The notes beneath the pieces are model-generated. The model was given only the letters and a program-made list of their open reading frames with translations, was not told where the DNA came from and searched no databases. A program made the translations under genes and the position numbers. From the NCBI RefSeq assembly GCF_011397635.1, contig NC_064765.1, positions 29,602,632-29,666,631 of the forward strand: a stretch of DNA of 64,000 nucleotides, written 5' to 3'. Positions 825 through 61,655 of this stretch are shown one piece after another. This stretch comes from Epinephelus fuscoguttatus (Eukaryota; Chordata; Actinopteri; Perciformes; Serranidae). Position 1 is the stretch's first letter; each line of letters starts with the position of its first letter.

Positions 825-3800
825 AAATCCTTGATGAAGAAAAGGTCAGAGATTATGAGGATGGACAAGGCTATTGAAGCAAAGGAGCAACTTGTGAAGA
901 AGCTTGAACAGAAACTTGAGATGGAAGAGCAGCTTGAGAAACAGAAGAAGAAATCTGCGGATGCCAAAATACTGTAAGCAATAGTGGATTCTTTGTCATT
1001 GTAACTTCAGACTGATTTATCTTTCCAGTTTTGTAATAATTCTAATTTTATCTCTGTTGTCAGTTTTGAAGAAATGAGGAAGTCCAAACTGGAGTTGAAT
1101 TCTGCAATTGAGAAGTTAACTGATGAAGTAGAGAGCGTAAAAAGGTAGCACTGTGATAATATTGCAAGTTTAACATAAATATAGTATGTTCAAATTTCTA
1201 CATGTTGTGTATGTATGAAGTGATTAGCCACTAAGGGTTAGGAAAAGATCTATAAGCAATTTTGGAAGTATTAATCTGCAAAAATAGATCAAAAACCTTT
1301 TCTTCTTCACAGTGAAGCTGCCCAGCTTGAGGATACCCTGGATGAATATAAGCAATCCAAGAACATTCTGTTAAAGATGTTGACTCCGGAGTGGCATGAG
1401 GCCCACGAGGCAGAGAATTCGAAAGCTGAAGTCCTGTCTGACAGAGACACTCAGATTGAGCCAGGCAGGGAGCCTCATGAGTCAGCAGTTAGGCAGGGTA
1501 AGTGTTAGAACCCAGTGGATCAATGTTTAATGGACTGTAACTGCCACAGTGAGGTATGTTAATCACTCAGTGTTGGCCTTTAAAGCCAATGTGTAAGATT
1601 TAGGGGATATGGTGCCACCTAGTGGTGAGGATTGCAGATTGCAACCAGGTGAAGCTTTTCCCTGTAAAAATTCCTTCAGTGTTTGTTGTTCGGGAGGTTT
1701 TTACTGGGAGCTGAATTAACTGCAGAGGTCTCGTGCTCTTCAGAACAAACAGGCCAGGTGATTAAAACTGATAAAAACCCAGAATAAGGTTTTCAACAGG
1801 CATTATACACAGAGGTTGCTTCAAAACAAACAAAACCAGTGAATTAAGCTGATAAAAACACTGAATAAAGCAGTTTCCCATTACGAAGCAGTGGTTTTGT
1901 GATGCTGCTCATTGCAGATGGGCTTCTGACTTTAGTGGCTGACATGAAAATGTGAATGGCACTGTCTGAAGCCAGTGTTTGATTTGTGCATTCTTGGCTA
2001 CTGTAGAAACATGGCGGTGCAACATGGTGATCTCTGTAGATGAGGACCTGCTCCCTATGTTGATATAAACAGCTAATTCTAAGGTTATGAAAACCCAATT
2101 CTTATTCAGTTTCTGCCAAAATATCCCCCTAAATCCTACAGGCTGGAGCTTTAAATCAAATCTTTCTCAGCCTTTCCAGTGTATATGAGATGACTATTGC
2201 AAAATTAATAAACACTGCTCTTTGTGTATGAGATTTGGTAATATGTAAAAGAGCACTCCATCAGTTTATTCTGAACTTCATTATCACTGAGGAACTCACA
2301 AGACACAGATTACAAAAAAAGACTGGTCAGGATTGATGCAGCAGATGCCAGAGATCCTGCGCAGTATGGAAAAGTATGGAGGTTGATTTTTTTGTAGTTT
2401 CCAGGTCAGGATATGTATGGAAAAAAGAAAAGAGAGTATGGAAAAATATTTGGGTTTCCAGACCATTGCACCTTTTCTGTTCTCAGACCCCTAATATTCA
2501 GAATTTCTAAAAATGAAATTGATCATACACGCAAAGTGTTTCTCATGGTGTGAGAGAGTGCAGGCCAGAACAAGCTCACAAAAGATATTCTTGTAATGTT
2601 CTTGTGGTTATGCCACTCTCTTCATCTGCTGGCCCTGCGGTGTCTCCCTGGCAGAGCAAGGCTGCTATTGTGACTATTGAGCTGTTGCACACTTTGGTAC
2701 ATTTCTACTCGCACTTCAGTTTTATTTGCACTACCATATTTTATTTGCTCTATCTATACTACAGTTTTTATTGCACTTTTAATTATTATTAATATCGCCT
2801 GTGCTAGTGCAAACGGTGTTTTTCTTTTAGCCTTACCTGTTATGATAAAGTTGATGTATTTATTTCGCCTAGTTGTCTTGATTGTACGATCTTGCTGTAC
2901 TACATGGTTGTCTTCTGTGTGTCTTGATTGTACATGATGGTTGTATCTGCTACGCAGCTATGTCACACTGTGCGCTTAAAAGAGATTTCCCGTTTGGGAA
3001 GATAAAGTTTATCTTATCTTACTATATAATGACGAAAACTCTGTCTGTGTGTGTGTGTCTGTTCCACGTTTTTCTCCTCACTGACTTGGTCAATCCATGT
3101 GAAATTTGGCACAGTGGTAGAGGGTCAGAGGTAGAGGATGTGAATGAAGCAATATTACATCAATTGGCCAAAAGGGGGCGCTATAGCAGCCAACTGAAAT
3201 TGCAAACTTTGAATGGGCATATCTCATGCCCTGTATGTCATAGAGACATGAAGCTTTACACAGAGATGCCTCTCCTCATGAGGAACAAATTTGCCCCAAG
3301 AGCCCATAACTTCTGGTTATATAGATTTTCAGCCATTTTGAATTTTTTGAAAAACACTTCAAATCAATCTCTTCCTAGGAAGTTGAACTGATCTACATAA
3401 AGGTGTATAACATCTCAAGGGTTTCACCAATCACCACGCAACTTTGTAGGCATATGACCACACATAATCTGAGGGGACCCCTCCATTATTGACCCCATCA
3501 AACAAAATGGGGGCGCTACAGAGCTAATTTTTTTATAATATAATATACTGAATATACACAGTACACAGCATCACAAATCAACTTATCTTAGGGTCTGTGT
3601 CCACCAAACCGTTTTATTCCTAAGGTCAGCAGTTTTTTAATCATTTGCAGTGGGAGTGCTGATTATTTATGCCATGATACAAACACCAGCAGCGTGTCAA
3701 GGCACTGAGCTTCTATTTTGCTCTGAGTGCGGTCAGTTTGGTGTTGTTCTCCTGAGCGCCGAGAGCTGGAAAATGTTTATCTTCAGCCTTCCCTTCATTG

Positions 3801-12940: not shown

Positions 12941-13145
12941 AAGAACAAATTGATGAGTGATGTGAGCTGCATAGTTCCAGAGTATTTGGATCAGCACAAT
13001 AATACTGCACAGTTTGTCATCACAGGAGAGTCTGGCTCTGGTAAAACCACCTTTGTTAATCCCTCAGGAAGCATAGACAAGAGAGCTGCCCTTTCTGGTT
13101 GTGTAGAAACCATTCACCATCCAAACTATCCCAATGTTACAGATA
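12935..13145 (+). pseudogene. IRG fragment psi-1 (G-domain remnant)
   Basis: Matches the start of the G domain: EYLDQ, a P-loop GESGSGKT, then a shortened stretch ending near HPNYPNVT. It lacks the N-terminus, switch regions, G4 motif and helical exon, and internal deletions remove parts around RGID and ETT. The flank AGAAATGAAAGAACAAATTG is shared with psi-2 at 17493, so the same dead fragment was copied. Confidence 0.8.
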
Positions 13146-15340: not shown

Positions 15341-15506
15341 AATTTAGAAAATTGTTGTAATTTAATGTAATCACCTATCTTTGCATTATATATTATGATC
15401 AGACTTATTGTATTTTATTGCATGATTAGATGAGGGTAAGCTTTTATATTCTGCAAATCAAACTTCTGCAATGATTTTCTGTTTTCTTTATTTTTCGGGG
15501 AGCACT

Positions 15507-17053
15507 ATGGATAATTCATTTGATTATGAATCAATAGTAGACTTTAAAGAGGAGCTACTAACCCATGGACCTGCCTCAGCAGCTGCAAAGATCCAGGAGT
15601 ATTTGGATCAGCAGGATAATATTCCACTAAATATTGGCATCACAGGAGAGTCTGGCTCTGGTAAATCCACCTTTGTTAATGCCTTCAGAGGCACAGACAA
15701 CAGGGATGAGAGAGCCGCCCCTACTGGTTGTGTAGAAACCACCTCAGAGGCTCCACCATACCCCCATCCCAACTATCCCAATGTCACACTGTGGGATCTT
15801 CCTGGTATTGGCACTCCCAACTTTTCAGCTAGCAACTACCTGGAGCGTGTTGAATTTGAAAAGTTTGACTTCTTCATCATCATCTCAGCTGATCGCTTCA
15901 AAGAAAATGATGTGAAGCTCACTAAGGAGATTCAGAGGATGGGGAAAAAGTTCTACTTTCTTTGTTCAAAGACTCACCATAACTTACGTGATGAGGAAGA
16001 CAGTCAGAGGGACTTCAACGCAGAAAGGACTCTTAAACAAATCAGGGACAACTGCATTCAAGGTAAGTCTGAGGTTAGAGGAGAACAAATGTCTAAATTT
16101 AAAGGTATATGCAGCAAGGGTCACAGGTAGACACTGCTTCATTTTGAGGAGACGAGCCAAAAATAACTTTTGGCAGCCCATGTTGAGAGGAAGAGCTAAC
16201 AATGTTATCAGGTCATAAATGATTCATATGAACAGTGGCAGAGCCCCCCAGTGAGAGTCTGTTGGCTTGACCACTCATCTTCTAAGATCTAAAACAACCT
16301 TTGTGTCTGGCCTGGAGAGAGCTGCTGGTGTATCCTGACACGAGGAGGCTCAGGATGTTTTCTCATTCTATTGTCATCATCTGAAATAAACTTCTTTGTT
16401 CTGTTTGCGACACAGGTCTTGAAAAACAAGGCTTCGAGTCTCCTCAAGTCTTCCTGGTGTCCAGCCGTCATCTCCACCTCTATGATTTCCATCTGTTAGA
16501 GGAGACCCTCGAGAGAGAACTTCCTGCACACAAGAGGAACACTCTGCTGTTGGCCATGCCTAATATCAGTCATGGTATCATCAGCAAGAAGAAAGAGGCT
16601 TTACAGGCAAAAATAAAGTACCTTGCCTCTATATCTGCACTCATAGCAGCTGCACCAGTTCCTGGTGTCTCTGTTGCCACTGATGTAACCATGCTGGTTG
16701 CTACCATCAATGAGTACAAAGTTACATTTGGTCTTGATAGCAAGTCACTGCAGAGTCTTGCTCGTAGTGCACACGTGCCTGTGGATGATCTTAGATCAGT
16801 GATGGCATCACAACTGGGTTTAAAGGAAATAAACAAAGAGCTTATCATTAAGATGTTGTGCTTGTCTGTAAGTGATGCTGCATTAATGGCAGCAGAGGAA
16901 GGGTTCAGATTTGTTCCATTATTTGGAATCCCAGCAGCAGCATCCCTCTCTTTTATCTTTACCTACAAAGCTCTTCATACTTTCCTCAACATGCTCGCTG
17001 AGGATGCACAGAAGGTGTTTACAAAGGCCCTGGGTCTGAACACCTCAGTGTGA
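15507..17053 (+). CDS. IRG-2: immunity-related GTPase, group I, with damaged G4 motif
   Basis: Coding exons 15507-16062 and 16416-17053, phase-1 junction, 397 residues, open throughout. P-loop GESGSGKS at 47-54 and DLPG at 97-100 are intact, but the G4 motif reads SKTH at 154-157 where paralogs have SKID. The Asp that normally reads the guanine base is therefore His. The acceptor before the coding exon reads TTTTTCGGGGAG where paralogs have TTTTTCAGGGAG, so the usual AG is gone; the next AG, five bases before the ATG, could replace it. The helical exon is nearly identical to that of IRG-3 and ends GLNTSV. Together these changes suggest a copy that has lost or altered nucleotide binding while keeping an open frame. 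It might still be a partner or decoy, or an early pseudogene. Confidence 0.8.
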
Positions 17054-17500: not shown

Positions 17501-17720
17501 AACAAATTGACGAGTGATGTGAGCTGCAAAGTTCCAGATTATTTGGATCAGCAGAATAATAGTCCACTAAATATTGGCATCACAGTCTGGATCTGGTAAA
17601 TCCATTTTTGATAATGTCTTCAGAGGCATAGACAGCAGTATTGGTAGTATAGTGCTTCATTTGTTAATCATGAGGTGCTGGACGTCAGAGAGCCTGCTGG
17701 CCCAGTGGGTTATGAGTTAG
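17493..17720 (+). pseudogene. IRG fragment psi-2
   Basis: Remnant of a G-domain exon: a stretch like DYLDQQNNSPLNIGIT, then a 5-base deletion inside the P-loop codons (CACAGTCTGGATCTGG against CACAGGAGAGTCTGG in intact genes), ending at CAGAGGCATAGACAGCAG. The tail TAGTGCTTCATTTG and the same 5-base deletion recur in psi-6 at 43.7 kb. Confidence 0.8.
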
Positions 17721-29817: not shown

Positions 29818-30060
29818 TTGAAAGGTTTGACTTCTTCATCATCATCTCAGCTGATCGCTTCAGAGAAAATGATGTGAAGCTCGCTCAGGAGATTCAGAGG
29901 ATGAAGAAAACATTCTACTTTGTTCACTCAAACACTGACCATGACATATATGATGAGAAAAGATGGCAGAGGTCAAAGTTTAACGCAGAATGGACTCTTT
30001 AACAAATTAGGGACACCTGCATTCAAAGTAAGTATAAGGTTAGAGGGGTAGCCTGAGTAA
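29818..30060 (+). pseudogene. IRG fragment psi-4 (second half of a G-domain exon)
   Basis: Begins at RFDFFIIISADRF and runs through KLAQEIQRM to the exon end. Lesions: the G4 region reads HSNTDHD, an in-frame TAA replaces the Lys codon of the TLKQIRD stretch, and the donor context is CAAAGTAAG. The following group I intron piece (to about 30150) is kept but no helical exon follows. Confidence 0.85.
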
Positions 30061-31780: not shown

Positions 31781-34004
31781 TCACACTGAGGTGTCCAAAC
31801 CCATGACCCTTTTAAACACCCTCTCTGCATCCTCAGCAAGTGTGTCGAGGAAATAATTGAGAGCTCTGTAGATGAAGGTAAAAGAAAGGATCATTGCTGC
31901 AGGGATTCCAAATATTGAAATAAATCTGGACACTTCCTCTGCTGCCATTAATGCAACTGTGCCTGCGCATCTAAGAAGCACCTTCAACAGAAGATCTCGG
32001 GTTATTTCTGTTGCAGCCAGTGGTGAAACTATGATGTTAATCAAATCCCTAAATGGCACACCTCTTCTATCAGTGAGTCTCCGCAGTGACGGGATGTCAA
32101 GGCCAAACCCATTTACATACTGTGTAACAACAGAAAGCAACACACCCACATCAACTGCAGCAGAAAGCCCAGGAACTGGTACAGCTGCTACACCTGCACT
32201 AAGCATAGCATAGTATTTTATTTTGGATTGGTAAGCCTTTTTCTTCTTGCCGATGAGCTCCAGGCTGATGTTGGGCATGGCCAGCAGCAGAGCATGCTTC
32301 TTGTGTGCAGGAAGTTCCCTCTCAAAGGTGTCCCCTAAGAGAGGGAAGTCATACAGGTGGAGATCAAAGCTGGACACCAGGAAGGCTTGAGGAGACTCAA
32401 CACCTTGTCTTTGAAGACCTGTGTGACAACAGGAATACATGATATGATGATAAGATATATAAAACAATTAGAACTTTTAAACTGTAAAACATAATATGCA
32501 TATCTATTGAATTATTATTTTCTATATATTCTTCCTGACACCCCATGCTTTGATTTAGTGGATATTATAAGAACAACAGATCACACTGTGCTTTGTAATT
32601 TTACTTTTGTGGAAAGGTGCCTGAGATATATTTTGAGTGGAAATAAAGTAAGAGAAGACTTGAGAGACTAATCTCTCTCTCTATCATTTTTTCAGTGAAG
32701 CTAGACTTGAGAAAAACACGAGACGATTTTAGAGAGTAATACACGACTGTGAGGAAAAATATCCTATATTGTTTATATTTGCAAAATATATTTTTCCCCC
32801 ATCAAATAGATCAGTTCACAAAAATCTAAACTAAGTCAGAAAGTTAAACGTCACAGCATCTAACAATCTTAGCACTGCGTGTATATCTGATTCACTGGAC
32901 TTCATGATTCACAGATGATGTTGAAGCTTGTCTTTGCAAAATTTTATATAAAAATATCAGGATTTAATACAAAAACATCAGTCTGATCTATGAGCCTAAA
33001 TGATGAGTGCAAAGGATAACAATGTCTCATCAGTCATGATTTTGTCATGATGTCTCCTTCTACCAGGTAACTGCTCTTTATACTGAAAGTAACCCCTAAC
33101 CCTGACCCTTCAGTGTGGAAGGCGAAGGCCTTTGCCTCCTACTACCAGTTGGACAACATGGTGGTTACTGTGGGTGTTAGCATGTTAGCATGGCATGGAG
33201 ACCAATGGCATGCAGTGTGAAGCCTTTGGATGGAACAAGTATATGGTGGATGGACATGATGCGGATTTCCTAACTTTGAGAAATCAATACCCCAAATAAA
33301 AGTGAATTGGAGTCAGACAAACATAATGACTATAAGCACTGATGTAAAGACACATATTCTTTGCCTTTTTTGTGACTTCTTTTTAATCGCGGACATTTTG
33401 TAATGAATCTCACTATTAGTATATGTGATAACATAAGTCTCTTACCCTGAATGCAGTTGTCCCTGATTTGTTGAAGAGTCATTTCTGCGTTGAACCTTGA
33501 CCTCTGACTTATTTCCTCATTTCTTAAGTCACTATCAATCTTTGAGCGAACAAAGTAGAACTTTTTCTTCATCCTCTGAATCTCCTGAGCGAGCTTCACA
33601 TCACTTTCTCTGAAGCGAGTGTCTGAGATGATGATGAAGAAGTCAAACCTTTCAAATCCAACAAGCTTCAGGTAGTTGTCAGCTGGAAAGTTGGGGGTGC
33701 CAATACCAGGAAGATCCCATAGTGTGACATTGGGATAGTTGGGATGGGGGTATGGTGTAGCCTCTGAGGTGGTTTCTACAGGACCAGTAGGAGCGGCTCT
33801 CTCATCCCCATTATTTATGCCTCTGAAGGCATTAACGAAGGTGGATTTACCAGAGCCTGTCTCTCCTGTGACAGCAATATTTAGTGGAATATTGTTCTGC
33901 TGATCCAAGTACTCCTGGATCTTTGCATCAGCTAAGGCTTGATTATTGCTCTCTAGTGCTTTTTTAATGTCTTCATGGATCCTGGAGGATCCTGGATCGT
34001 CCAT
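31781..34004 (-). CDS. IRG-5: immunity-related GTPase, group II
   Basis: Minus strand; coding exons 34004-33446 and 32418-31781, phase-1 junction (CAG G|GT), 398 residues. Start MDDPGSSRIHED, just after a CTGCAG acceptor and the ATTACC that precedes every group II ATG. All G motifs are intact: GETGSGKS 47-54, DLPG 97-100, SKID. Residues ADNYLKLVGFERFDFF and GPVETTSE mark group II. The helical exon starts GLQRQGVESPQ and ends GLDTSV. It is the only complete IRG in this orientation and faces IRG-6 head to head. Its promoter has a GAS site (see 34386-34530). The intron is about 1 kb and shares blocks with the IRG-8 introns. Confidence 0.9.
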
Positions 34005-34385
34005 GGTAATCCTGCAGTAAAATGGAGTGAAAGAGGAGGTAAAAGTCATTAGTGTCTTTGATAAATAGAAGAAAATGTAGTCCTGCAATGATCAAACATC
34101 ATGTACATAGAATCCTGGATACCAATGAAAATCTGACAGGTAGAATACATCTTTAGAAATCCTGTCTTCTTTTAAAATATTTTATGATGCTGTATAGCTT
34201 TGAACACAGCAGATCAGTTTGGCGCACTCAGGTATGCACATAATAACACAGAGAAAGGTGAAATCTTTTCAGTTTTAGTGGATCTTGTGTATCATACCAT
34301 GCCAGTTTATGCAGCAATAAGCAGCTTCCTTATATTTTTCATCAGGATAAAAAGATGGCTTTGCTGAATATTAGAAGCTACTCAC

Positions 34386-36199: not shown

Positions 36200-36790
36200 C
36201 CGTCAGATGGTTTACAGGCATAGAAGATGGAAATGAGAGAGCTGCCCCTACAGGTTGTGTAGACACCACCTCAGAGGTTATACCATACCCCCATCCCAAC
36301 GATCCTGATGTTACATTATGGGATCTTTTGGTATTGGCTCTACTAACTTTTCAGCTGACGAGTACCTGACACATGTTGGATTTGAAAATGTTGACTTCAT
36401 CATCATCATCTCAGCCAATCGCTTAAGAGAAAATGATGTGAAGCTTGCTCAGGAGATTCAGAGGATGAGGAAAGAAATCTACTTTGTTTGCTCAAAGACT
36501 GACCATGCCTTACATGACAAGTTGTCAGAGATCAGAGTTCAACGCAAAAAAGACTCTTAAGTAAATCAGGGAAAACTACATTCAAGGGAAGTCAAGGTTA
36601 GATGGTAGTAGACACTGCCTTATTTTAAGGACAAAAGAGCCAAAAAAACTTTTCATATTGGCAGCCCAAGTTGAGAGGAAGAGCTACAAATGCTAACAGG
36701 TAAGAAAATGAGTCATATGAACACTGGCAGAGCCCCCCAGTGAGAGTCTGCTGGCTTGAGCACTCATCTACTCAGATCTGACATATACAG
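36200..36790 (+). pseudogene. IRG fragment psi-5 (G domain plus intron)
   Basis: Starts at RGIEDGNERAAPTG, with no P-loop. One base is lost in the DLPG codons (GATCTTTTGG against GATCTTCCTGG), which shifts frame. The frame is then open through ADEYLTHVGFENVDF to a stop at 36558. The donor region is degraded and the group I intron follows to about 36790 without a helical exon. Confidence 0.85.
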
Positions 36791-37862: not shown

Positions 37863-38216
37863 GTGAGTGGCTTCTAATATTCAGCAAAAGCCTTCTTTGT
37901 ATCCTGATGAAAAATACGAGGAAGCTGCTTATTGCTGCATAAAACTGGCATAGTGTGAGTAAACAGTCACTAAAAATGTGCTAATGTAAATAGATTTTAC
38001 CTTCATCTGTCAAAAAGATCTGCTGTGTGCCAGGTTATACATGATATTTTCAAGGACGTGGGGATTTCTAAAGATGCAGTGTGCATGTCAGATCATTGTG
38101 TTTAAGATTGTATATACATGACGTTAGGTCATCATAGGACTAAATTTTTTTCACTATTTCCCAAAATACAATGATGGCTTTTTACTTCTCTTGTACTCCA
38201 GTTATCAAGGATTACC

Positions 38217-39923
38217 ATGGAGAGTGGACAATGGACTGAAGACATTAAAAAAGCACTAGAAAATAATGATCGGGCCTTAGCTGTAAAAAGGATGCAGGAG
38301 TATTTGGATCAGCAGAACAATATTCCACTAAATATTGCCGTAACTGGAGAGACTAATTCTGGTAAATCCACCTTCGTTAATGCCTTCAGAGGCATAAATA
38401 ACGGGGATGAGAGAGCTGCTCCTACTGGTCCTGTAGAAACCACCTCAGAGGCTACACCATACCCCCATCCCAACTATCCCAATGTCACGCTGTGGGATCT
38501 TCCTGCTATTGGCACCCCCAACTTTCCAGCTGACAAGTACCTGAAGCTTGTTGGATTTGAAAGGTTTGACTTCTTCATCATCATCTCAGCCACTCGCTTC
38601 AGAGAAAATGATGTGAAGCTCGCTCAGGAGATTCAGAGGATGAAGAAAAAGTTCTACTTTGTTCGCTCAAAGATTGACACTGACATACATGATGAGGAAA
38701 GACGTCAGAGGTCAGAGTTCAATGCAGAAAGGTGTCTTGAACAAATCAAGAAAAACTGCATTCAGGGTAAGTGACTTATGTAATCACATATCGTAATGAT
38801 GAGATTAATTACAAAATATGCATCATTAAAAACAGGTCTCCCCTCCAAAATACACAAGTCTGACAACTTTCATAGTAATAGGTTTGTAGCAATTTTCTAA
38901 ATCATTAAGTAAAATCACGTAACAGTTCTGCTAACGTATTTTCAATATCCAACAAATTGTAGACGTACATTAAAACTTTAAACCAAATCAAAGACTGTCA
39001 TTAATACCACACTGCTGCCTCTTTTGGCAAACAAAGCTGTCATACTGGTGACCATGGAGTAACTAACACTTCCTGTATGGGCCCCTGACTTTAATAGAGT
39101 TGGTGGAGAAGGTTAACAGTTTCAGTGTGATGTCCACTGAATCAAAACACAGGGTGCCTGGAAAATTTAAACAAAATAATAATTCAATAATCCTAGATCC
39201 TAGATCTGCACCTTATTTTACACATTTTAAAAGTTCTAATTGTTTTATATATCTTATCATCATATCATGTATTCCTGTTGTCACACAGGTCTTCAAAGAC
39301 AAGGTGTTGAGTCTCCTCAAGTCTTCCTGGTGTCCAGCTTTCATCTCCACCTGTATGACTTCCCTCTCTTAGGGGACACCTTTGAGAGAGAACTTCCTGC
39401 ACACAAGAAGCATGCTCTGCTGCTGGCCATGTCCAACATCAGCCTGGAGGTCATCGACAAGAAGAAAAAGGCTTTTCATGCCCAAATAAAATACTATGCT
39501 ATGCTTAGTGCAGGTGTAGCAGCTGCACCAGTTCCTGGTCTTTCTGTTGCAGTTGATGTGGGTGTGTTGCTTTCTGTTGTTATAAAATATGTAAATGGGT
39601 TTGGCCTTGATAAACCATCACTGCGGAGACTCCCTGATAGAAGAGGTATGCCATTTAGGTATCTGATTAACATCATAGTTTCACCACTGGCTGCAACAGA
39701 AATAACCCGAGATCTTGTGTTGAAGGTGCTTCTTAGATGTGCAGGCACAGCTGCATTAATGGCAGCAGAGGAAGTGTCCAGATTTACTCCACTAATTAGA
39801 ACCACAGCAGCAATGAGTCTCTCTTTTATCTTCACCTACAGAGTTCTCAATACTTTCCTCAACAGACTTGCTGAGGATGCAGAGAGGGTGTTTAAAAGGG
39901 TCATGGGTTTGGACATAGTGTGA
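38217..39923 (+). CDS. IRG-6: immunity-related GTPase, group II, with altered G3 motif
   Basis: Coding exons 38217-38766 and 39289-39923, phase-1 junction, 394 residues; start MESGQWTED after GGATTACC. P-loop GETNSGKS at 44-51 still fits GxxxxGKS. The G3 motif reads DLPA at 94-97 where every other intact copy has DLPG, so the conserved Gly of DxxG, which contacts the gamma-phosphate in small GTPases, is Ala. SKID is kept. The helical exon opens GLQRQGVESPQ, and the C-terminus is GLDIV rather than GLDTSV, so the conserved TSV end is missing. The frame is otherwise open and both splice sites are normal. It may be expressed with impaired hydrolysis or switching; this is inference from the motif. 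Confidence 0.87.
38767..39288 (+). other. IRG-6 intron
   Basis: 522 bases, GTAAGTGAC donor and TCACACAG acceptor. Nothing else recognised. Confidence 0.6.
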
Positions 39924-43709: not shown

Positions 43710-43955
43710 GGAGCTACGAATAATCCATTTGATTATGAACCAGTAGAAGAAATGAAAACAGAGCTGCTTACCAATAGACCTGCCTTTAGGAACTACAAAG
43801 ATTCAGATAAATACTGGCATCACAGTCTGGATCTGGTAAATCTACCTTTGTTAATGCCTTCAGAGGCATAGACAACAGTACTGGTAGTACAGTGCTTCAT
43901 TTGTAATCATGAGGTGCTGGACGTCAGAGAGCCTGCTGGCCCAGTGGGTCACGGA
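43710..43955 (+). pseudogene. IRG fragment psi-6
   Basis: Starts GGGAGCTACGAATAATCC, where the ATG has become ACG, then NPFDYEPVEEMKTELL. A deletion removes the EYLDQ region, and the P-loop shows the same 5-base loss as psi-2. It breaks off after AGAGGCATAGACAACAG and shares the tail TAGTGCTTCATTTG with psi-2. Confidence 0.85.
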
Positions 43956-52619: not shown

Positions 52620-52840
52620 ATTTCTTGGAAGTCAGCTGCTTTACAGCTGACCAATCAGTTTTCTCTCACTCATAGTGGGACATTTTCATTGGTCACTGTC
52701 AAAACTCTGAGCAACTTTCCTAAAAGTAAAGTAAGGAAGTGAAGAAACTGGGAGGTCGACTTTTCTCTCAGCTGAACAACTTATAGTAACTCATCAGCTG
52801 GTGTCCTCTTGTCTCATCTGTTTCAACATTAAGACTCCAG
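52620..52840 (+). promoter_or_regulatory. group II promoter and non-coding exon 1 of IRG-8a with GAS site
   Basis: TTCTTGGAA at 52622-52630, CCAAT at 52651-52655, then AGTTTTCTCTCACTC. Exon 1 ends CTCCAG|GTGAG at 52840/52841. It is the only intact promoter for the IRG-8 locus, because that of 8b has been deleted. Confidence 0.65.
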
Positions 52841-53100
52841 GTGAGTAGCTTCTAATATTCAGCAAAAGCCTTCTTTATTTTGATGAAACATACACTGAAC
52901 TGATGTGGTGTGTGTGTGTGTGTGTGTGTGTGAGGTTATACTGCATCATGATATGAGGAGATTTATAAAGATGCGACACATCAGATTTTCATTGTATTTA
53001 ATATTCCATATACATGATGTTAGATCAGTCTAATACTACATTTCCCAAAAGATAATAATGGCTGTTTACTTCTGTTGTACTGCAGTTATCAAGGATTACC

Positions 53101-54997
53101 ATGGAGAGTGGACAATGGACTGAAGACGTTAAAAAAGCACGAGAAAATAATGATCGGGCCTTAGCTGTAAAAAGGATACAGGAGTATTTGGACAAGCAGA
53201 ATAATACTCCAATAAATATTGCCGTCACAGGAGAGACAGGCTCTGGTAAATCCACCTTCGTTAATGCCTTCAGAGGTATAGACAACTGGGATGAGAGAGC
53301 TGCTCCTACTGGTTGTGTAGAAACCACCTTAGAGGCTATATCATACCCCCATCCCAACTATCCCAATGTTAAACTATGGGATCTTCCTGGTATTGGCACC
53401 ACCAAGTTTCCAGTTGACAAGTACCTGAAGCTTGTTGGATTTGAAAGGTTTGACTTCTTCATCATCATCTCAGACACTCGCTTCAGAGAAAATGATGTGA
53501 AGCTCGCTCAGGAGATTCAGAGGATGGGGAAAAAGTTCTACTTTGTTCGCTCAAAGATTGACAGTGACTTAAGAAATGAGGAGATAAGTCAGGGGTCAAG
53601 GTTCAACGCAGAAAGGACTCTTCAACAAATCAGGGACAACTGCATTCAGGGTAAGTGACTTATCAGTATGTAACCACATATAATAATAGTGAGATTATTA
53701 ATTACAAAATGTGCATAGTTAAAAACAAGTCACAAAGAAGATAGTAAAGAACTATGTGTCTTTAAGTCAGTGCTTATGTTTGTCTCCAATTCACTTCATT
53801 CTGTTTAATTTGAAGTATTAAGGTCTCAAAAATAAAAAAGTCAGACAGCTTTCAGTATAAAGAGCAGTTACCTGGTAGAAGGAGACATAAGGGAGCACTT
53901 GGTCACTGAGGTGGTGAAGAGGTTGAGCCATTGTTGGACAGTTCACATTTCTTTTGACAGAGATCCCAGTCAGCAGCAGATGTTTACTGGGACAAACTGA
54001 CCTGCACAGAAAATCATGACTGATGAGACACTGTTATCCTTTGCACTCATCATTTAGGCTCATAGATCAGACTGATGTTTTTGTATCAAATGCTGATGTT
54101 GTTATATTAAAATTTTGCAAAGACAAGCTTCAACATCATCTGTGAATCATGAAGTCCAGTGAATCAGATATACACGCAGTGCTAAGAATGTTAGATGCTG
54201 TGACGTTTAACTTTCTGACTTAGTTTAGATCTTTGTTGAACTGATTTATTTGATGGAGGAAAAATATATTTTGCAAATATAAACAACATATTGTATTAAT
54301 GAGCTGTTGTTCTGATAATTAAATATTACTGTCTAGAATAGTTTTCTAGTCTATAACCTTCACTATATCGATGGTAGAGTGAGAGAATAGTCTCTGGTCT
54401 TCTGTCTTTTTATCATTACTCAAATTTTATCAGACACTTTTCCAAAAAGTTTTTAGTAATTAAAGAAAAAATAAAGCTACAAAACCCAGTTCTGCTTTTG
54501 TATTTGCAATATCTGAGAAAATGTAAGCACACATTCAAACTTTAAAGCAAATCACAGACTGACATTAATACCACTCTGCTGCCTCTCTTGATTGTTTTGA
54601 AAATGGGGTTTTACATAAATTCTAATAAAGTGAAAAGGGATTTGGAGGAGGTGAGTTCAGAAGTGAGTTCAAACTTCATATTTGGGCCTCTGACTGTAAT
54701 ATAACATTTGAAGGAGGTTTCAGAGTGATGTCATTTTATATTTTTAGTGTCCACTAAATCAAAGCAAATGATGCCAAGAAAGAAAAATAGATAATGTGTC
54801 CCTAGAGACATATTACATTTTAAAAGTTCTGATTGTTTTATATATCTTATCATCATATCATGTATTCCTGTTGTCACACAGGTCTTCAAAGACAAGGTGT
54901 TGAGTCTCCTCAAGTCTTCCTGGTGTCCAGCTTTCATCTCCACCTGTATGACTTCCTTCTCTTAGTGAACACCTTTGTTTCAACGTTCAGACTCCAG
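53101..54997 (+). pseudogene. IRG-8a taken alone: G domain intact, helical exon truncated
   Basis: Start MESGQWTEDVKKAR; G motifs complete, donor at 53650/53651. The second exon begins normally at 54882 but homology stops after AACACCTTTG (about 54968), where sequence of a group II exon 1 begins. If the hybrid exon is not spliced, translation ends at TAA 12 bases into the next intron. A truncated protein of about 226 residues without the helical domain would result. Whether this unit is dead or part of the fusion needs transcript data. Confidence 0.6.
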
Positions 54998-55177
54998 GTG
55001 AGTGGCTTCTAATATTCAGCAAAAGCCTACTTTATTTTGATGAAACATACAGCTGCTTCTCGCTGTCTAAAACAGGCACATTACAATACAGAGGATTCAC
55101 TGTAAATGTGCTAATGTGAGTAGATTTCACCCTCCTCTGTGTTATTATATACACACCTTAGAATGCTAAACTGATAT

Positions 55178-55234
<57 letters not shown>

Positions 55235-58200
55235 TTATACTGCATCATGATATGAGGAAGACAGGATTACTAAAGATGTGTCACGTCAGATTTTCATTGT
55301 ATTTAATATTCTACCTACATGATGTCAGATCATTCTATCACTACATTTTCTGTTTATCAAAAGACAAACACTTTTAATTTCTCTTTTACTCCAGTTTTCA
55401 AGGATTACCATGGAGGATCCATCTGATCGCAAATCAACTGAAGACATAAAAATAGCAGGAAAAAGCAGCAATCGGGCCTTAGCTGTAAAAATGATCCAGG
55501 AGTATTTGGACAGGAAGAAAAATATTCCACTAAATATTGGCTCCACAGGAGAGTCTGGCTCTGCTAAATCCACCTTTGTTAATGCAAAAACAAAAATACT
55601 AGAAAGCAATAATCAAGTCTTAGCTGAAGAAGTTATACAGGAGTATCTGGACAAGGAGAATGATATTTCACTAAATATTGGCATCACAGGAGAGTCTGGC
55701 TCTGGTAAATCCACCTTCGTTAATGCCTTCAGAGGCATAAATAACGAGGATGAGAGAGCTGCTCCTACTGGTTGTGTAGGAACCACCTCAGAGGCTACAC
55801 CATACCCCCATCCCAACTATCCCAATGTCACGCTGTGGGATCTTCCTGGTATTGGCACTCCCAACTTTTCAGCTGACAACTACCTGAAGCTTGTTGGATT
55901 TGAAAGGTTTGACTTCTTCATCATCATCTCAGCTGAACGCTTCAGAGAAAATGATGTGAAGCTCGCTCAGGAGATTCAGAGGATGAAGAAAAAGTTCTAC
56001 TTTGTTCGCTCAAAGATTGACTCTCACATACGTGATGAGGAAAGACGTCAGAGGTCAAAGTTCAACGCAGAAAGGTGTCTTGAACAAATCAAAGAAAACT
56101 GCATTCAGGGTAAGTGACTGATGTTATCACATATGATAATGATGAAATTTATTACAAAATGTGCATAATTAAAAACAAGTCACAAAGAAGATAGTAAAGA
56201 ACTATGTGTCTTTAAGTCAGTGCTTATGTTTGTCTCCAATTCACTTCATTCTGTTTAATTTGAAGTATTAATGTCTCAAAATAAAAAAGTCACACAACTT
56301 TCAGTATAAAGAGCAGTTACCTGGTAGAAGGAGACATAAGGGAGCACTTGGTCACTGAGGTGGTGAAGAGGTTGAGCCATTGTTGGACAGTTCACATTTC
56401 TTTTGACAGAGATCCCAGTCAGCAGCAGATGTTTACTGGGACGTGTGGTATTATTGCATGTTGGTTCATAGTATGATGTATTGACACTAGTCCATACCCA
56501 TTGGTAGCTTTGTCACCTTCTACCTATGCCAGTCCTCAATGCCTATGTGCAGTTTCACATAGATTGACCACGTCAGTGAGTAGAAAAACGTGGGACAGAC
56601 AGAATGACTGACTGACAGAATGACACACTAACAGTTTCCATGATTATGTACAGCATACCATACCATGACTTAGTCATACCAAAAATTAGAAATAAAACAA
56701 CAACATTGGGCCACAGGGGGAGCCACAGCGATCGGTTGCATTTTAGCCATTTTTAAGCATTTTTCTGTTGTTATAACGCCACCCAGTTGCCAATTAGAGT
56801 TAAATTTCTCCAGTCACCTTGAGGCGTCCTGTTCTACATATCTACCAAGTTTAGTAAAAATCGATATGGCGGTTAGGCCTAGATAAGAAATGAGCTCTCT
56901 AGCGCCCCCATTTTGTTTGATGGGGTCAATAATGGAGGGGTCCCCTCAGATTATGTGTGGTCATATGCCTACAAAGTTGCGTGGTGATGGGTGAAACCCT
57001 TGAGATGTTATACACCTTTATGTGATGAGCCACGCCCTCCGCAATATTCATTGCCTTATAGAAGCTCAGTTTTAGTAAGTTTTCCAACTTTTGCCAAGAG
57101 GGAACTTTAGATATTGGTCCCTAGATTATGAGTTTCATGCAGATCGGTCAAACTTCCTAGGAAGAGATCGATTTGAAGTGTTTTTCAAAAAATTCAAAAT
57201 GGCAGAAAATCTATATAACCAGAAGTTATGGGTTCTTGTGGCAGATTTGTTCTTCATGAAGAGAGGCATCTCTGTGCAAAGTTTCGTGTCTCTACGACAT
57301 ACGGGGCATGAGATATGCCCATTCAATGTTTGCAATTTCAATCAGTTGCTATAGCGCCTCCCTTTGGCCAATTGATGTAATATTGCTTCATTCGCATCCT
57401 CCCATGACCCTCTACCACTGTGCCAAATTTCACATGGATTGACCAAGTCAGTGAGGAGAAAAATGTGGAACAGACACACAGACAGAGTTTTCGTCATTAT
57501 ATAGAAAGATAAGATGGGAGGTCTTGTGTGATGTGAACATGTGGGGGCGCTGTGGGTGTATCAGGCTGTATTTATTCTCATGTGGTAGCAGAGCAAGAAG
57601 TTGATTAAAAGTTGCTCATACAGTACACAGTTTGTCTCATGGTATAAACTTAAAATACACGACAGGACAAACTGACCTGCACAGAAAATCATGACTGATG
57701 AGACGCTGTTATCCTTTGCACTCATCATTTAGGCTCATAGATCAGACTGATGTTTTTGTATTAAATCCTGATGTTGTTATATTAAAATTTTGCAAAGAAA
57801 AGCTTCAACATCATCTGTGAATCATGAAGTCCAATGAATCAGATATACACGCATGTTAGTTGCTGTGGCGTTTAACTTTCTGAATTATTTTAGATTTTTG
57901 TTAAACTGATTTATGGATGGAGGATAAAATATATTTTGCAAATATAAACAATATTGTATTAATGAGCTGTTCTCATAGACATGTATTACTGTCTAAAAAG
58001 TCCTAAGTTTTTCTCAGGTCCCTCAGGTTAGTCTCTGAAGTCTTGTGTCACTTTATTTTCACAGACACCTTTATAAACAGTTTATAATATATACATTTTT
58101 TAAATCACAAAGTAAAATTATTAACAGTTCTGCTTTTGTATTTGCAATATCTGAGAAAATGAACATTAAAACTTCAAATCACAGACTGTCATTAATACCA

Positions 58201-59166
58201 CTCTGCTGCCTCTCTTGATTGTTTTTAAATTGAGATTGTACATAAATGCTAATAAAGTGAAAAAGGGATTTGGAGGAGGTGAGTTCAGAAGTGAGTTCAA
58301 AAAATAAAACTTCCTGTGGACCTGTAATTTTAATATAACATTTGAAGAAGGTTTCAGGGTGATGCAATTTGTTATTTTTTAATGTCCACTAAATCAAAGC
58401 AAATGATGCCAAGAAAAAAATAGATAATGTGTCCCTAGATAGACATATTGCAGTTTAAAAGTTCTATTTGTTTTATATATCTTATCATCATATCATGTAT
58501 TCCCTTTGTCACACAGGTCTTCAAAGACAAGGTGTTGAGTCTCCTCAAGTCTTCCTGGTGTCCAGCTTTCATCTCCACCTGTATGACTTCCCTCTCTTAG
58601 TGAACACCTTTGAGAGAGAACTTCCTGCACACAAGAAGCATGCTCTGCTGCTGGCCATGTCCAACATCAGCCTGGAGCTCATCGATAAGAAGAAAAAGGC
58701 TTTCCAGTCCAAAATAAAATACTTTGCTACACTTAGTGCAAGTGTAGCAGCTGTACCAGTTCCTGGTCTTTCTGTTGGGGTTGATGTGGGTCTGTTGGTT
58801 TCTGTTGTTACACAATATGTAAATGGGTTTGGCCTTGACGTCCTGTCTTTACAGAGACTCGCTGACAGTACACATGTGCCATATGATGAACTGATTGCCA
58901 TCATAGTTTCACCACTGGCTGCAGTTAAAATAACCCCTGATCTTGTGTTGAAGGTGCTTTCTCAGTGTGCAGGCACAGCTGCATTAAGGACAGCAGAGGA
59001 AGGCTCCAGATTTATTCCAATACTTGGAATCCCTGCAGCAATGAGTTTCTCTTTTACCTTCATCTACAGAGCTCTCAATTATTTCCTCGACACACTTGCT
59101 GAGGATGCACAGAGGGTGTTTATAAAGGCATGGGTTTGGACACCTCAGTGTGATTTTGTGAGGTGA
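53101..59166 (+). CDS. IRG-8 (8a-8b): predicted tandem-GTPase IRG fusion gene
   Basis: Proposed coding exons 53101-53650 (8a G domain), 54882-54997 (hybrid exon), 55395-56109 (8b G domain) and 58517-59166 (8b helical domain); 2031 bases, 676 residues, all phases matching. Residues 1-183 hold GETGSGKS at 44-51, DLPG and SKID. The hybrid exon is the first 87 or so bases of a helical exon (GLQRQGVESPQ to LLLVNTF) joined to the last bases of a group II exon 1 (VSTFRLQ). Five more codons from the 8b 5' UTR read FSRIT before the 8b Met at 228. 8b then carries a broken P-loop GESGSAKS (274-281) and an intact GESGSGKS (321-328). The helical domain ends WTPQCDFVR through a frameshift. Splicing 53650 directly to 58517 is also in phase and would give a normal 399-residue IRG. 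The joining of the exons is inference; the exons are seen directly. Confidence 0.55.
53651..54881 (+). other. IRG-8a intron
   Basis: Shares long blocks with the IRG-8b intron (56110-58516) and, inverted, with the IRG-5 intron, e.g. ATGAAGTCCAGTGAATCAG. No gene within. Confidence 0.6.
55171..55232. repeat. (GT)n microsatellite
   Basis: About 30 GT units in the intron before the 8b coding exon. A shorter GT run sits at the same place before 8a (52909-52932). Confidence 0.95.
55410..59166 (+). CDS. IRG-8b: group II IRG with duplicated P-loop segment
   Basis: If translated from its own ATG: exons 55410-56109 and 58517-59166, 449 residues, about 50 longer than its paralogs. Residues 1-59 repeat the N-terminal segment of the family up to the P-loop (GESGSAKS at 47-54, Gly to Ala). 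A second N-terminal segment follows (KILESNNQVLAEEVIQEYL) with an intact GESGSGKS at 94-101, then DLPG and SKID. CVGTT replaces the usual CVETT. Near the C-terminus one base is lost (TTTATAAAGGCATGGG), so the usual GLDTSV end becomes a frameshifted tail. Its own promoter and most of exon 1 are deleted. It probably depends on the 8a promoter, so it is listed here as an alternative reading of the fusion gene. Confidence 0.6.
56443..57664. mobile_element. inserted sequence in the IRG-8b intron, containing an inverted copy of the 3.0 kb repeat
   Basis: The paralogous 8a intron is continuous here. The insertion is flanked by GGAC on both sides (56439-56442, 57665-57668). Inside, 56890-57520 is the reverse complement of 3005-3535. 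Confidence 0.65.
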
Positions 59167-60027: not shown

Positions 60028-61655
60028 CGGTGGTGGAAAAAAGTTTTCGGACACCCCATGCATTTGTGAAATATTGCATTAAGAATCACTCTTAGGTCCT
60101 CAAGTGCAATTTCTTTTAGTACAGTCACAGCCAAAATACTAAGTAAATCCTAAAAAAGCCATTAAAAACTTAAAATTGATTGGTTCCATGAAAATACATA
60201 AGAAATTTTGAGTATTGGGTCATTTTGGTACCAGTGATGAAGGTCGTTCTTTTTATTAAAAGACACAATTTTTGTTGCCAAGCTTCATGTCTACATAAAG
60301 CCAGCACATTTGAAAGTTCTTCAGACACAAAAATGGCTAAAACAAGGAACCTAACGCAGGAAACACGCCTGACAATAAAGATTCTCAGCCAGGAAGGGTA
60401 CAGCTGCCGCCAGATAGCCAGGAAGTGCAGATGCAGTCCTTCAGCAGTTGGATACACTCTGCAGAAATACAGACGAACCAACAGCTTGGAAGACAAACCA
60501 AGATCTGGGCGTCCAAGGGTTTCTTCAGCAAGAAATGACTGCATCCTGATCCGCATGTGCAGGCAAAACCGCCGAATGACATCACAGGAGCTTCAGCAGC
60601 AGTGGTCAAACCAAACTGGTGTCCAGTGTTCCACCCGCACTGTACGTGGCCACTTTTAGATCATGGCTTAAGGTCCTACAAGGCTATCAAGAAGCCCCTG
60701 ATCAATGAGAGACAGAGGTTAGCCCGGCGTCGTTGGGCCCAGGCACACAAGAACTGGACAGCCAGGAACTGGAAGAAGATTTTGTGGTCAGATGAGTCCA
60801 GTTTCCAGCTTTATCTTCCTCCTACTAATGTGAGGGTACGCAGAAGGCCAGGCGAAGCATTATCTCCAGCATGTACAGTACCTACTGTCAAGCATGGTGG
60901 AGGCAGTATCATGGTTTGGGGATGCATGAGTGCTGCTGGTGTTGGTCATCTCACTGTCTGTGATGGCACATTGAACTCTACCAAGTATTGTACCATTCTC
61001 CAAACCCACATGCTCCCTTCTGCGCGTGCACTGTTCCGTCGAGGTAAAAACTGGATGTTTCAACAAGATAATGCCCCTTGCCACACATCCAAGGCCAGTA
61101 GAACTTGGCTGCAGGAGCACAGTATCCAGGTCTTAGAGTGGCCAGCTCAATCCCCGGACATGAGCCCCATTGAAAATCTGTGGTGGATTATCAAAAGGTC
61201 TGTTTCAAAGCATAAACCAAAGAATTTAGAAGAATTAAAAGCAGTAATTCAAGAAGAATGGGACAAGATTACCCCTCAACAGTGTGAAAGGCTCGTGGGG
61301 AACATGCCAGCCAGGATTAGAGCTCTACTACGTGCCAATGGCAGGACTACTAAATATTAATTTGATGATGTGATGGTTTATTTATTTTTTGTTCAGTTTT
61401 GAACACATTCTCTGTTATTTGTTGACTTTGATACCGACAATGTTGAGAACTGACATATTGAAACTGTCAAGAATTTAGTTTTGTTAGTTTTTCTTGTAAA
61501 CAATAAACAAAAAAATATAATTTGTATTTGTTTGTATCTGTCTAATGCAGCCACACCTTTTGAAACACAAAAAAGATTTTTCCACAAATATTTCATGATA
61601 ATATTTGAGATTGTGTAAAATTTTAAGGGTGTCCGAAAACTTTTTTCCACCACTG
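60028..61655 (+). mobile_element. Tc1/mariner element, near complete
   Basis: 1628 bases between TA dinucleotides (60026-60027, 61656-61657). The left end CGGTGGTGGAAAAAAG and the right end (inverted CAGTGGTGGAAAAAAG) are matching terminal inverted repeats. The empty site is visible in the duplicated flank of IRG-6 (GGCATTATG at 40.69 kb), proving insertion after that duplication. Confidence 0.92.
60333..61360 (+). pseudogene. Tc1-like transposase, single frameshift
   Basis: The N-terminal frame starts MAKTRNLTQETR and has the paired helix-turn-helix region (GYSCRQIARKCRCSPSAV) and a GRPR box. It hits a stop at 60657-60659. The other frame, in step from about 60645, continues LLDHGLRSYKA to the end at 61360. 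It holds the DDE residues: Asp in WSDESSF, Asp in QQDNAPCH and Glu in PIENLWW. A single indel near 60640-60656 separates the parts, so the element is probably immobile but recently so. Confidence 0.88.

Follow-up and report, generated by a model that had tools for sequence, protein, structure and literature searches.

Exon structure and reading frame of the 8a/8b locus

Two adjacent IRG units, here called 8a and 8b, lie in the 64,000-nt stretch of Epinephelus fuscoguttatus DNA that was analysed (the window), and the question they raise is whether they belong to a single gene for a protein with two GTPase domains and, if so, by which route that gene arose. The layout found in the sequence is 5'UTR exon, GTPase exon, hybrid exon, GTPase exon and helical exon (Table 1). 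Joined from the 8a ATG, the exons 53101-53650, 54882-54997, 55395-56109 and 58517-59166 give 2031 nt that translate into 676 residues and a terminal stop, with neither an internal stop nor a frame break within the 676 codons of the four joined exons. All three introns begin with gt and end with ag. The exon 53101-53650 ends in phase 1, the hybrid exon of 116 nt brings the frame to phase 0, and the 15 nt preceding the 8b ATG are open, the former 5'UTR being read as FSRIT in frame into the 8b methionine, which becomes residue 228. Such a four-exon frame, with these phases and these 15 open nucleotides, had been proposed in a sequence-only reading of the same DNA and is borne out by joining and translation, as is the order of GTPase, short join, GTPase and helical domain in one open frame. 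From its 676 residues, the predicted tandem protein is estimated at ~ 76 kDa.

The same reading had described the central exon as a hybrid that keeps an acceptor and a donor, with a helical part of about 87 nt. Both splice sites are present, but the helical-derived part measures 96 nt. It runs to 54977, while the 5'UTR-like part starts at 54976, hence 2 nt (TG, 54976-54977) are common to both. The acceptor of the hybrid exon is that of units 5 and 6, identical over the 24 nt compared, and its donor, CAG/gtgagt, is the exon 1 donor of 8a, 6 and 5. The GTPase-exon donor gtaag is found in all nine IRG units of the window, and the acceptor of the 8b GTPase exon is a normal one (ctccag). The tandem structure is real in the sequence, and it has a precedent in kind.

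Table 1. Positions of the features of the 8a/8b locus, in nucleotides of the window
Feature	Position	Strand	Remarks
GAS-like element TTCTTGGAA	52622..52630	+	upstream of the 8a 5'UTR exon; consensus match only
3' end of non-coding exon 1 of 8a	52819..52840	+	donor gtgagt at 52841; 20/22 nt identical to 54976-54997
8a exon	53086..53650	+	15 nt of 5'UTR, ATG 53101, GTPase domain 1 (183 codons + 1 nt)
Hybrid exon	54882..54997	+	54882-54977, start of helical exon; 54976-54997, tail of 5'UTR exon
8b exon	55395..56109	+	15 nt of former 5'UTR (FSRIT), 8b ATG 55410, GTPase domain 2
P-loop segment of 8b, copy 1, degenerate (GESGSAKS)	55449..55586	+	111/138 aligned nt identical to copy 2
P-loop segment of 8b, copy 2, canonical (GESGSGKS)	55587..55727	+	repeat comparison
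Insertion in 8b intron 2, not in 8a	56443..57664	.	parts match 3011-3533, other strand
8b helical exon	58517..59166	+	end of GTPase domain and C-terminal helical domain; C-terminus altered by 1-nt deletion

Domain content of the predicted protein

The Pfam family IIGP (PF05049) matches the 8a exon (E = 3.3e-69), the 8b exon (1.5e-74, in two matched stretches) and the helical exon (5.1e-25). Comparison with PDB sequences gave, for each of the two queries, 13 distinct sequences, all of them named IRG proteins. Nucleotide-binding motifs were searched for as GxxxxGKS (G1), DxxG (G3) and [NTS]KxD (G4). The 8a domain carries GETGSGKS, DLPGIG and SKID, and the main domain of 8b carries GESGSGKS, DLPGIG and SKID. 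Given IIGP matches over the GTPase and helical parts and the presence of G1, G3 and G4, the predicted protein is, as judged from its sequence, a member of the IRG (p47) GTPases. The altered nucleotide-binding motifs that characterise the IRGQ quasi-GTPases are not seen, since both main domains keep G1, G3 and G4.

Where the first unit is cut was next located on a known structure. In an alignment of the 399-residue product obtained when the two middle exons are left out, the 8a cut point NTF, at residue 215, corresponds to approximately residue 247 of the Irga6 chain 1tq4. The residues encoded by the hybrid exon before this point (184-215) align with the Irga6 chain ungapped, as in any IRG, and contain the strand QVFLVSS and the beginning of the next helix. 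We take this strand and the start of the following helix to stand at the end of the GTPase domain, the domain bounds being our assumption. The sequence that is new at the join comes to ~ 12 residues (216-227), VSTFRLQ and, from the former 5'UTR, FSRIT. Hence the linker of about 40 residues that had been proposed between the two GTPase domains does not hold up, being for the most part the 32 residues that end GTPase domain 1. The first unit has thus lost its C-terminal helical domain while its GTPase domain is nearly whole, losing little or nothing. A structure prediction of the 8b GTPase exon, run on an alignment of eight of the nine units (unit 2 omitted), reached a mean pLDDT of 45.2 and a pTM of 0.39 and was discarded.

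In the paralogous units the single coding intron follows NCIQG, before the strand QVFLVSS; the tandem frame itself has three introns. In the Irga6 alignment this intron site presumably falls at the end of helix 4. On the intron position of the paralogous units, the gene is provisionally filed as an irgf-type IRG.

Further changes in 8b

The earlier description of 8b, sound as to its exons, mentioned neither a repeat within its GTPase exon nor a change at its C-terminus, and both were found here. The P-loop segment of 8b is repeated in frame at 141-bp spacing. Copy 1 has its highest identity with 8a (115/138 nt) and copy 2 with unit 5 (115/138, against 114/138 with 8a), and it is possible, judging from these identities, that the two copies come from different sources. 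At the other end of the unit, in the 59085-59166 region, 8b carries a 1-nt deletion compared with units 3, 5 and 6, which shifts the frame of the C-terminus and turns last residues of the family's GL.TSV type into AWVWTPQCDFVR.

The insertion in the second intron of 8b contains three pieces that match 3011-3533 at 75.9, 90.3 and 95.9% identity, and it is probably a transposable element. Just downstream of 8b, at 60192-61360, reading frames were observed that we presume to be of a Tc1-type transposase.

Exon combinations and transcription

Four combinations starting at the 8a ATG and containing exon 4 were tried, of which only 1-2-3-4 (676 residues) and 1-4 (399 residues) reach the normal end; 1-2-4 and 1-3-4 run into an early stop, as does 1-3. 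The 1-4 joining (53650 to 58517), which leaves out the hybrid exon and the 8b GTPase exon, is in frame and gives an ordinary IRG of 399 residues, of which residues 18-384 align with Irgb10 in the PDB sequence comparison. A product of 8b alone, of 449 residues, would need its own transcription start. The most likely reading is one gene with a predicted tandem GTPase and the ordinary 399-residue IRG as an alternative product.

The emphasis could also be the reverse, the gene mainly making the ordinary IRG while the duplicated exons are a tolerated passenger. The open 1-4 combination, most of which aligns with IRG structures, speaks for this, and so does the degenerate extra P-loop segment within the 8b GTPase exon. 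On the other hand, the acceptor and donor of the hybrid exon and the 8b donor are those of the paralogues and the 8b acceptor is normal, with nothing seen that forces skipping, and the main GTPase motifs of 8b are intact. We regard a mainly ordinary product as unlikely and keep the tandem GTPase as the predicted main product. Three AATAAA sequences in the intron that separates the 8a GTPase exon from the hybrid exon (53831, 54470 and 54624) may lead to early polyadenylation.

The promoter side of the locus was examined for the GAS consensus and for ISRE-type patterns. The 9-mer TTCTTGGAA is found upstream of exon 1 in three of three regions (units 5, 6 and 8a, 401-424 nt each) and was not found in the 516 nt that end with the 5'UTR-exon remnant of 8b. 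Three ISRE-type patterns gave zero matches in the promoter regions of 8a, 5 and 6. The same 516 nt contain one TATA-like match and one loose TTNCNNNAA match, and no 5' part of exon 1; a weak promoter may be present there. Transcription would begin at 8a, perhaps in an interferon-responsive manner, and the hybrid exon would be spliced as an internal exon. For the mouse tandems, it has been argued from the lack of separate 5'UTR exons that the downstream units are expressed only in tandem (as set out in PMC1297648).

Proposed origin of the tandem structure

In intron 2, 1044 of the 1161 positions aligned between 8a and 8b are identical (89.9%), whereas either of the two units shows 72.4-74.6% identity with units 5 and 6. 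The 117 differing positions (10.1%) are accompanied by 19 indels, 12 of them not multiples of three. Within its exact bounds, intron 1 of 8a and of 8b agrees at 211 of 245 positions. The relationship is not uniform along the locus: at 54019-54218 unit 5 is locally equally close (95-99%), and at 53019-53118 8a is nearer to unit 6 (85%) than to 8b (71%). Homology to units 5 and 6 on the promoter side is present before 8a and absent before 8b, and the helical exon beyond 54977 is absent from 8a, its remainder being present only after 8b.

The simplest origin, which we prefer by parsimony alone, would be a single intragenic tandem duplication that began within the 5'UTR exon and ended within the helical exon. 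In this event the middle of an irgf-type gene would have been duplicated in tandem through one break in the 5'UTR exon and one early in the helical exon, at a place where 2 nt are shared. The sequence-only reading had spoken of a fusion of two genes; the joined structure stands, while a two-gene origin is not required, as one intragenic duplication would by itself yield such a structure. The alternative, in which a duplication is followed by a deletion that merges two genes, takes one step more and was rejected on parsimony only, since the resulting sequence is identical by either route.

It could also be asked whether the hybrid exon results from an assembly or haplotype error in which two paralogous units were merged, since similar paralogues are clustered in the window, a setting where misjoins can happen, and one haplotype was seen. 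Assembly collapses usually join homologous places, whereas the join here connects non-homologous places with only 2 nt in common. Moreover, the second introns of 8a and 8b differ to the extent given above, and within 21 nt at the tail of the hybrid exon there are 2 changes absent from units 5, 6 and 8a, which are identical there. An artefact is hence very improbable. Taken as a whole, we lean, with slightly better than even confidence, towards a tandem-duplicated irgf-type gene whose 676-codon frame would encode two tethered GTPase domains and a single helical domain.

Chance, selection and gene conversion

How much an open in-frame join says about function was estimated by simulating breakpoints in the actual 8b helical exon and the actual 8a 5'UTR exon, both breakpoints being varied. 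In 27840 pairs, 33.3% restored the frame and 33.1% were in frame and open. The open join is consequently weak evidence of function or of a selected fusion. Given that openness is an outcome of about one in three, it is the homology and the splice anatomy of the locus that exceed chance.

Under a simple neutral model at the intron 2 rate, the probability that neither a stop nor a frameshift arises in 8a or in the helical-derived part of the hybrid exon is p = 0.009, a value weakened by the possibility that intact paralogues preserved the 8a frame through gene conversion. This helical-derived part differs from 8b at 1 of 94 nt where 9.5 differences are expected (p(<=1) = 0.0008; 0.05 for one lineage), and this stretch is alike generally among 8a, 8b, 5 and 6 (94.7-98.9%). 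The changes private to 8a, 9 nonsynonymous and 3 synonymous, stand at the neutral ratio (0.721 to 0.237). Among the 99 columns that are invariant in the other eight units, 8a alters 6. The dN/dS of 8a against 8b is 0.89; for the GTPase exons of other pairs it is 0.55 (5-6), 0.61 (5-7), 0.67 (6-7) and 0.29 (3-4), and for the helical exons of seven pairs it ranges from 0.66 to 2.78, the highest value having a dS of only 0.007.

Gene conversion was approached through the distribution of informative sites among 8a (53101-53650), 8b (55410-56109), unit 5 (33330-34091, minus strand) and unit 6 (38175-38774). With the second P-loop copy kept, 32 informative sites fall in 7 runs, and 0 of 20000 shuffles had as few; with the first copy kept, 28 sites fall in 9 runs, as few as in 16 of 20000 shuffles. 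The GTPase exons are a mosaic whichever copy is used, 8a grouping with unit 6 close to the 5' end and, at the 3' end, with unit 5, which suggests gene conversion. Divergence of the exons by selection alone was considered and rejected, as the informative sites fall in blocks. Selection on the first unit is unsupported, since the private changes are at the neutral ratio and conversion can hold a frame open. The mosaic GTPase exons and the high dN/dS in several pairs would fit a fast-evolving resistance family.

These results bear on the view that the locus is a decaying duplicate, its frame open by chance and through gene conversion, from which a stable tandem protein is not made. The neutral ratio of the 8a changes and the 8a-8b dN/dS agree with decay, as do the C-terminal frameshift and the degenerate P-loop copy of 8b and the presence of broken IRG pieces elsewhere in the window. 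However, 676 codons persist without a stop or a break of frame, dN/dS is high in other pairs of units too (though low in 3-4), and the six altered columns of 8a all lie outside G1, G3 and G4. We consider decay improbable and continue with the duplicated gene and its tandem frame.

Known tandem IRG proteins and proposed function

As described in PMC1297648 and PMC3810784, the tandem transcripts of mouse Irgb2-b1 and Irgb5-b4 each comprise two full-length units and give proteins of ~ 94 kDa, with the spacer spliced out, and in the account of PMC1297648 a dedicated 5'UTR exon was not found for the downstream unit. The fish locus resembles them in having adjacent IRG units in one frame, the frame being known here from the sequence. 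In contrast, both mouse units are full length while the first unit here ends at 54977 and continues through the hybrid-exon join; this difference had already been pointed out and agrees with the description in PMC1297648.

A closer precedent is the zebrafish tandem of a truncated irgg with irgq1 (Bekpen 2005, PMC1297648), which, compared by description, is likewise from a fish and truncated in its first IRG unit. The zebrafish irgq1 is itself truncated and is described there as an unlikely GTPase (PMC1297648), whereas both main domains keep their motifs at the present locus. The statement that no IRG of this form had been described is hence too broad as regards a truncated first unit, for which the zebrafish tandem is a precedent in that account, though not one for the exact form seen here. 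Fish irgf genes are described as having a single intron, located where helix 4 of the G domain ends (PMC1297648), as in the paralogous units here. Furthermore, a Fugu irgf pair was annotated in ENSEMBL as one tandem gene and judged by the authors of PMC1297648 not to be a tandem; unlike that pair as described, 8a and 8b share a hybrid exon.

The protein would hold a nearly complete GTPase domain 1 and, after a short join, a second IRG unit that is complete and has the sole C-terminal helical domain. By analogy with the mouse tandems, its most likely function would be that of a covalently linked pair of IRG GTPases, in which the extra N-terminal domain would pair with the second domain or with partner IRGs and the single helical domain would do the membrane work. 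Alternatively, the N-terminal domain could be a divergent surface turned toward a pathogen factor, as in mouse Irgb2-b1 versus ROP5/ROP18. Irgb2-b1 of the mouse CIM strain is reported to counter the Toxoplasma ROP5/ROP18 complex, its direct binding to ROP5 being termed preliminary in that report (PMC3810784). It is conceivable, though we give this full scenario well under even confidence, that the locus encodes a working IRG with two catalytic GTPase domains on one C-terminal helical domain, which arose from one intragenic duplication, has been kept since (~ 10% intron divergence) and acts either as an obligate intramolecular G-domain pair or through an N-terminal decoy evolving apart from the membrane-acting unit.

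If expressed, the gene would show, as a natural experiment, which IRG parts have to be present twice, and G-domain pairing would be separated from membrane action in a protein whose two tethered GTPase domains share one helical domain. A duplication reaching from the 5'UTR exon into the helical exon moreover suggests a one-step route by which tandem IRGs may arise in fish.

Other IRG sequences in the window

Two further units depart from the nucleotide-binding motifs: unit 6 (38175-38774) has DLPAIG in place of the G3 motif DLPGIG, and unit 2 (15426-16130) has SKTH in place of the G4 motif SKID. Judging from these motifs, both are possible quasi-GTPases. Short matches to the P-loop segment were also seen outside the listed units, at 12976-13139, 17522-17634 and 43798-43876, the first of which matches IIGP at E = 0.00025, below the Pfam cut-off. 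Partial pieces of the GTPase exon at 36211-36592 and 29818-30033 match 8a and 8b at 81-88%.
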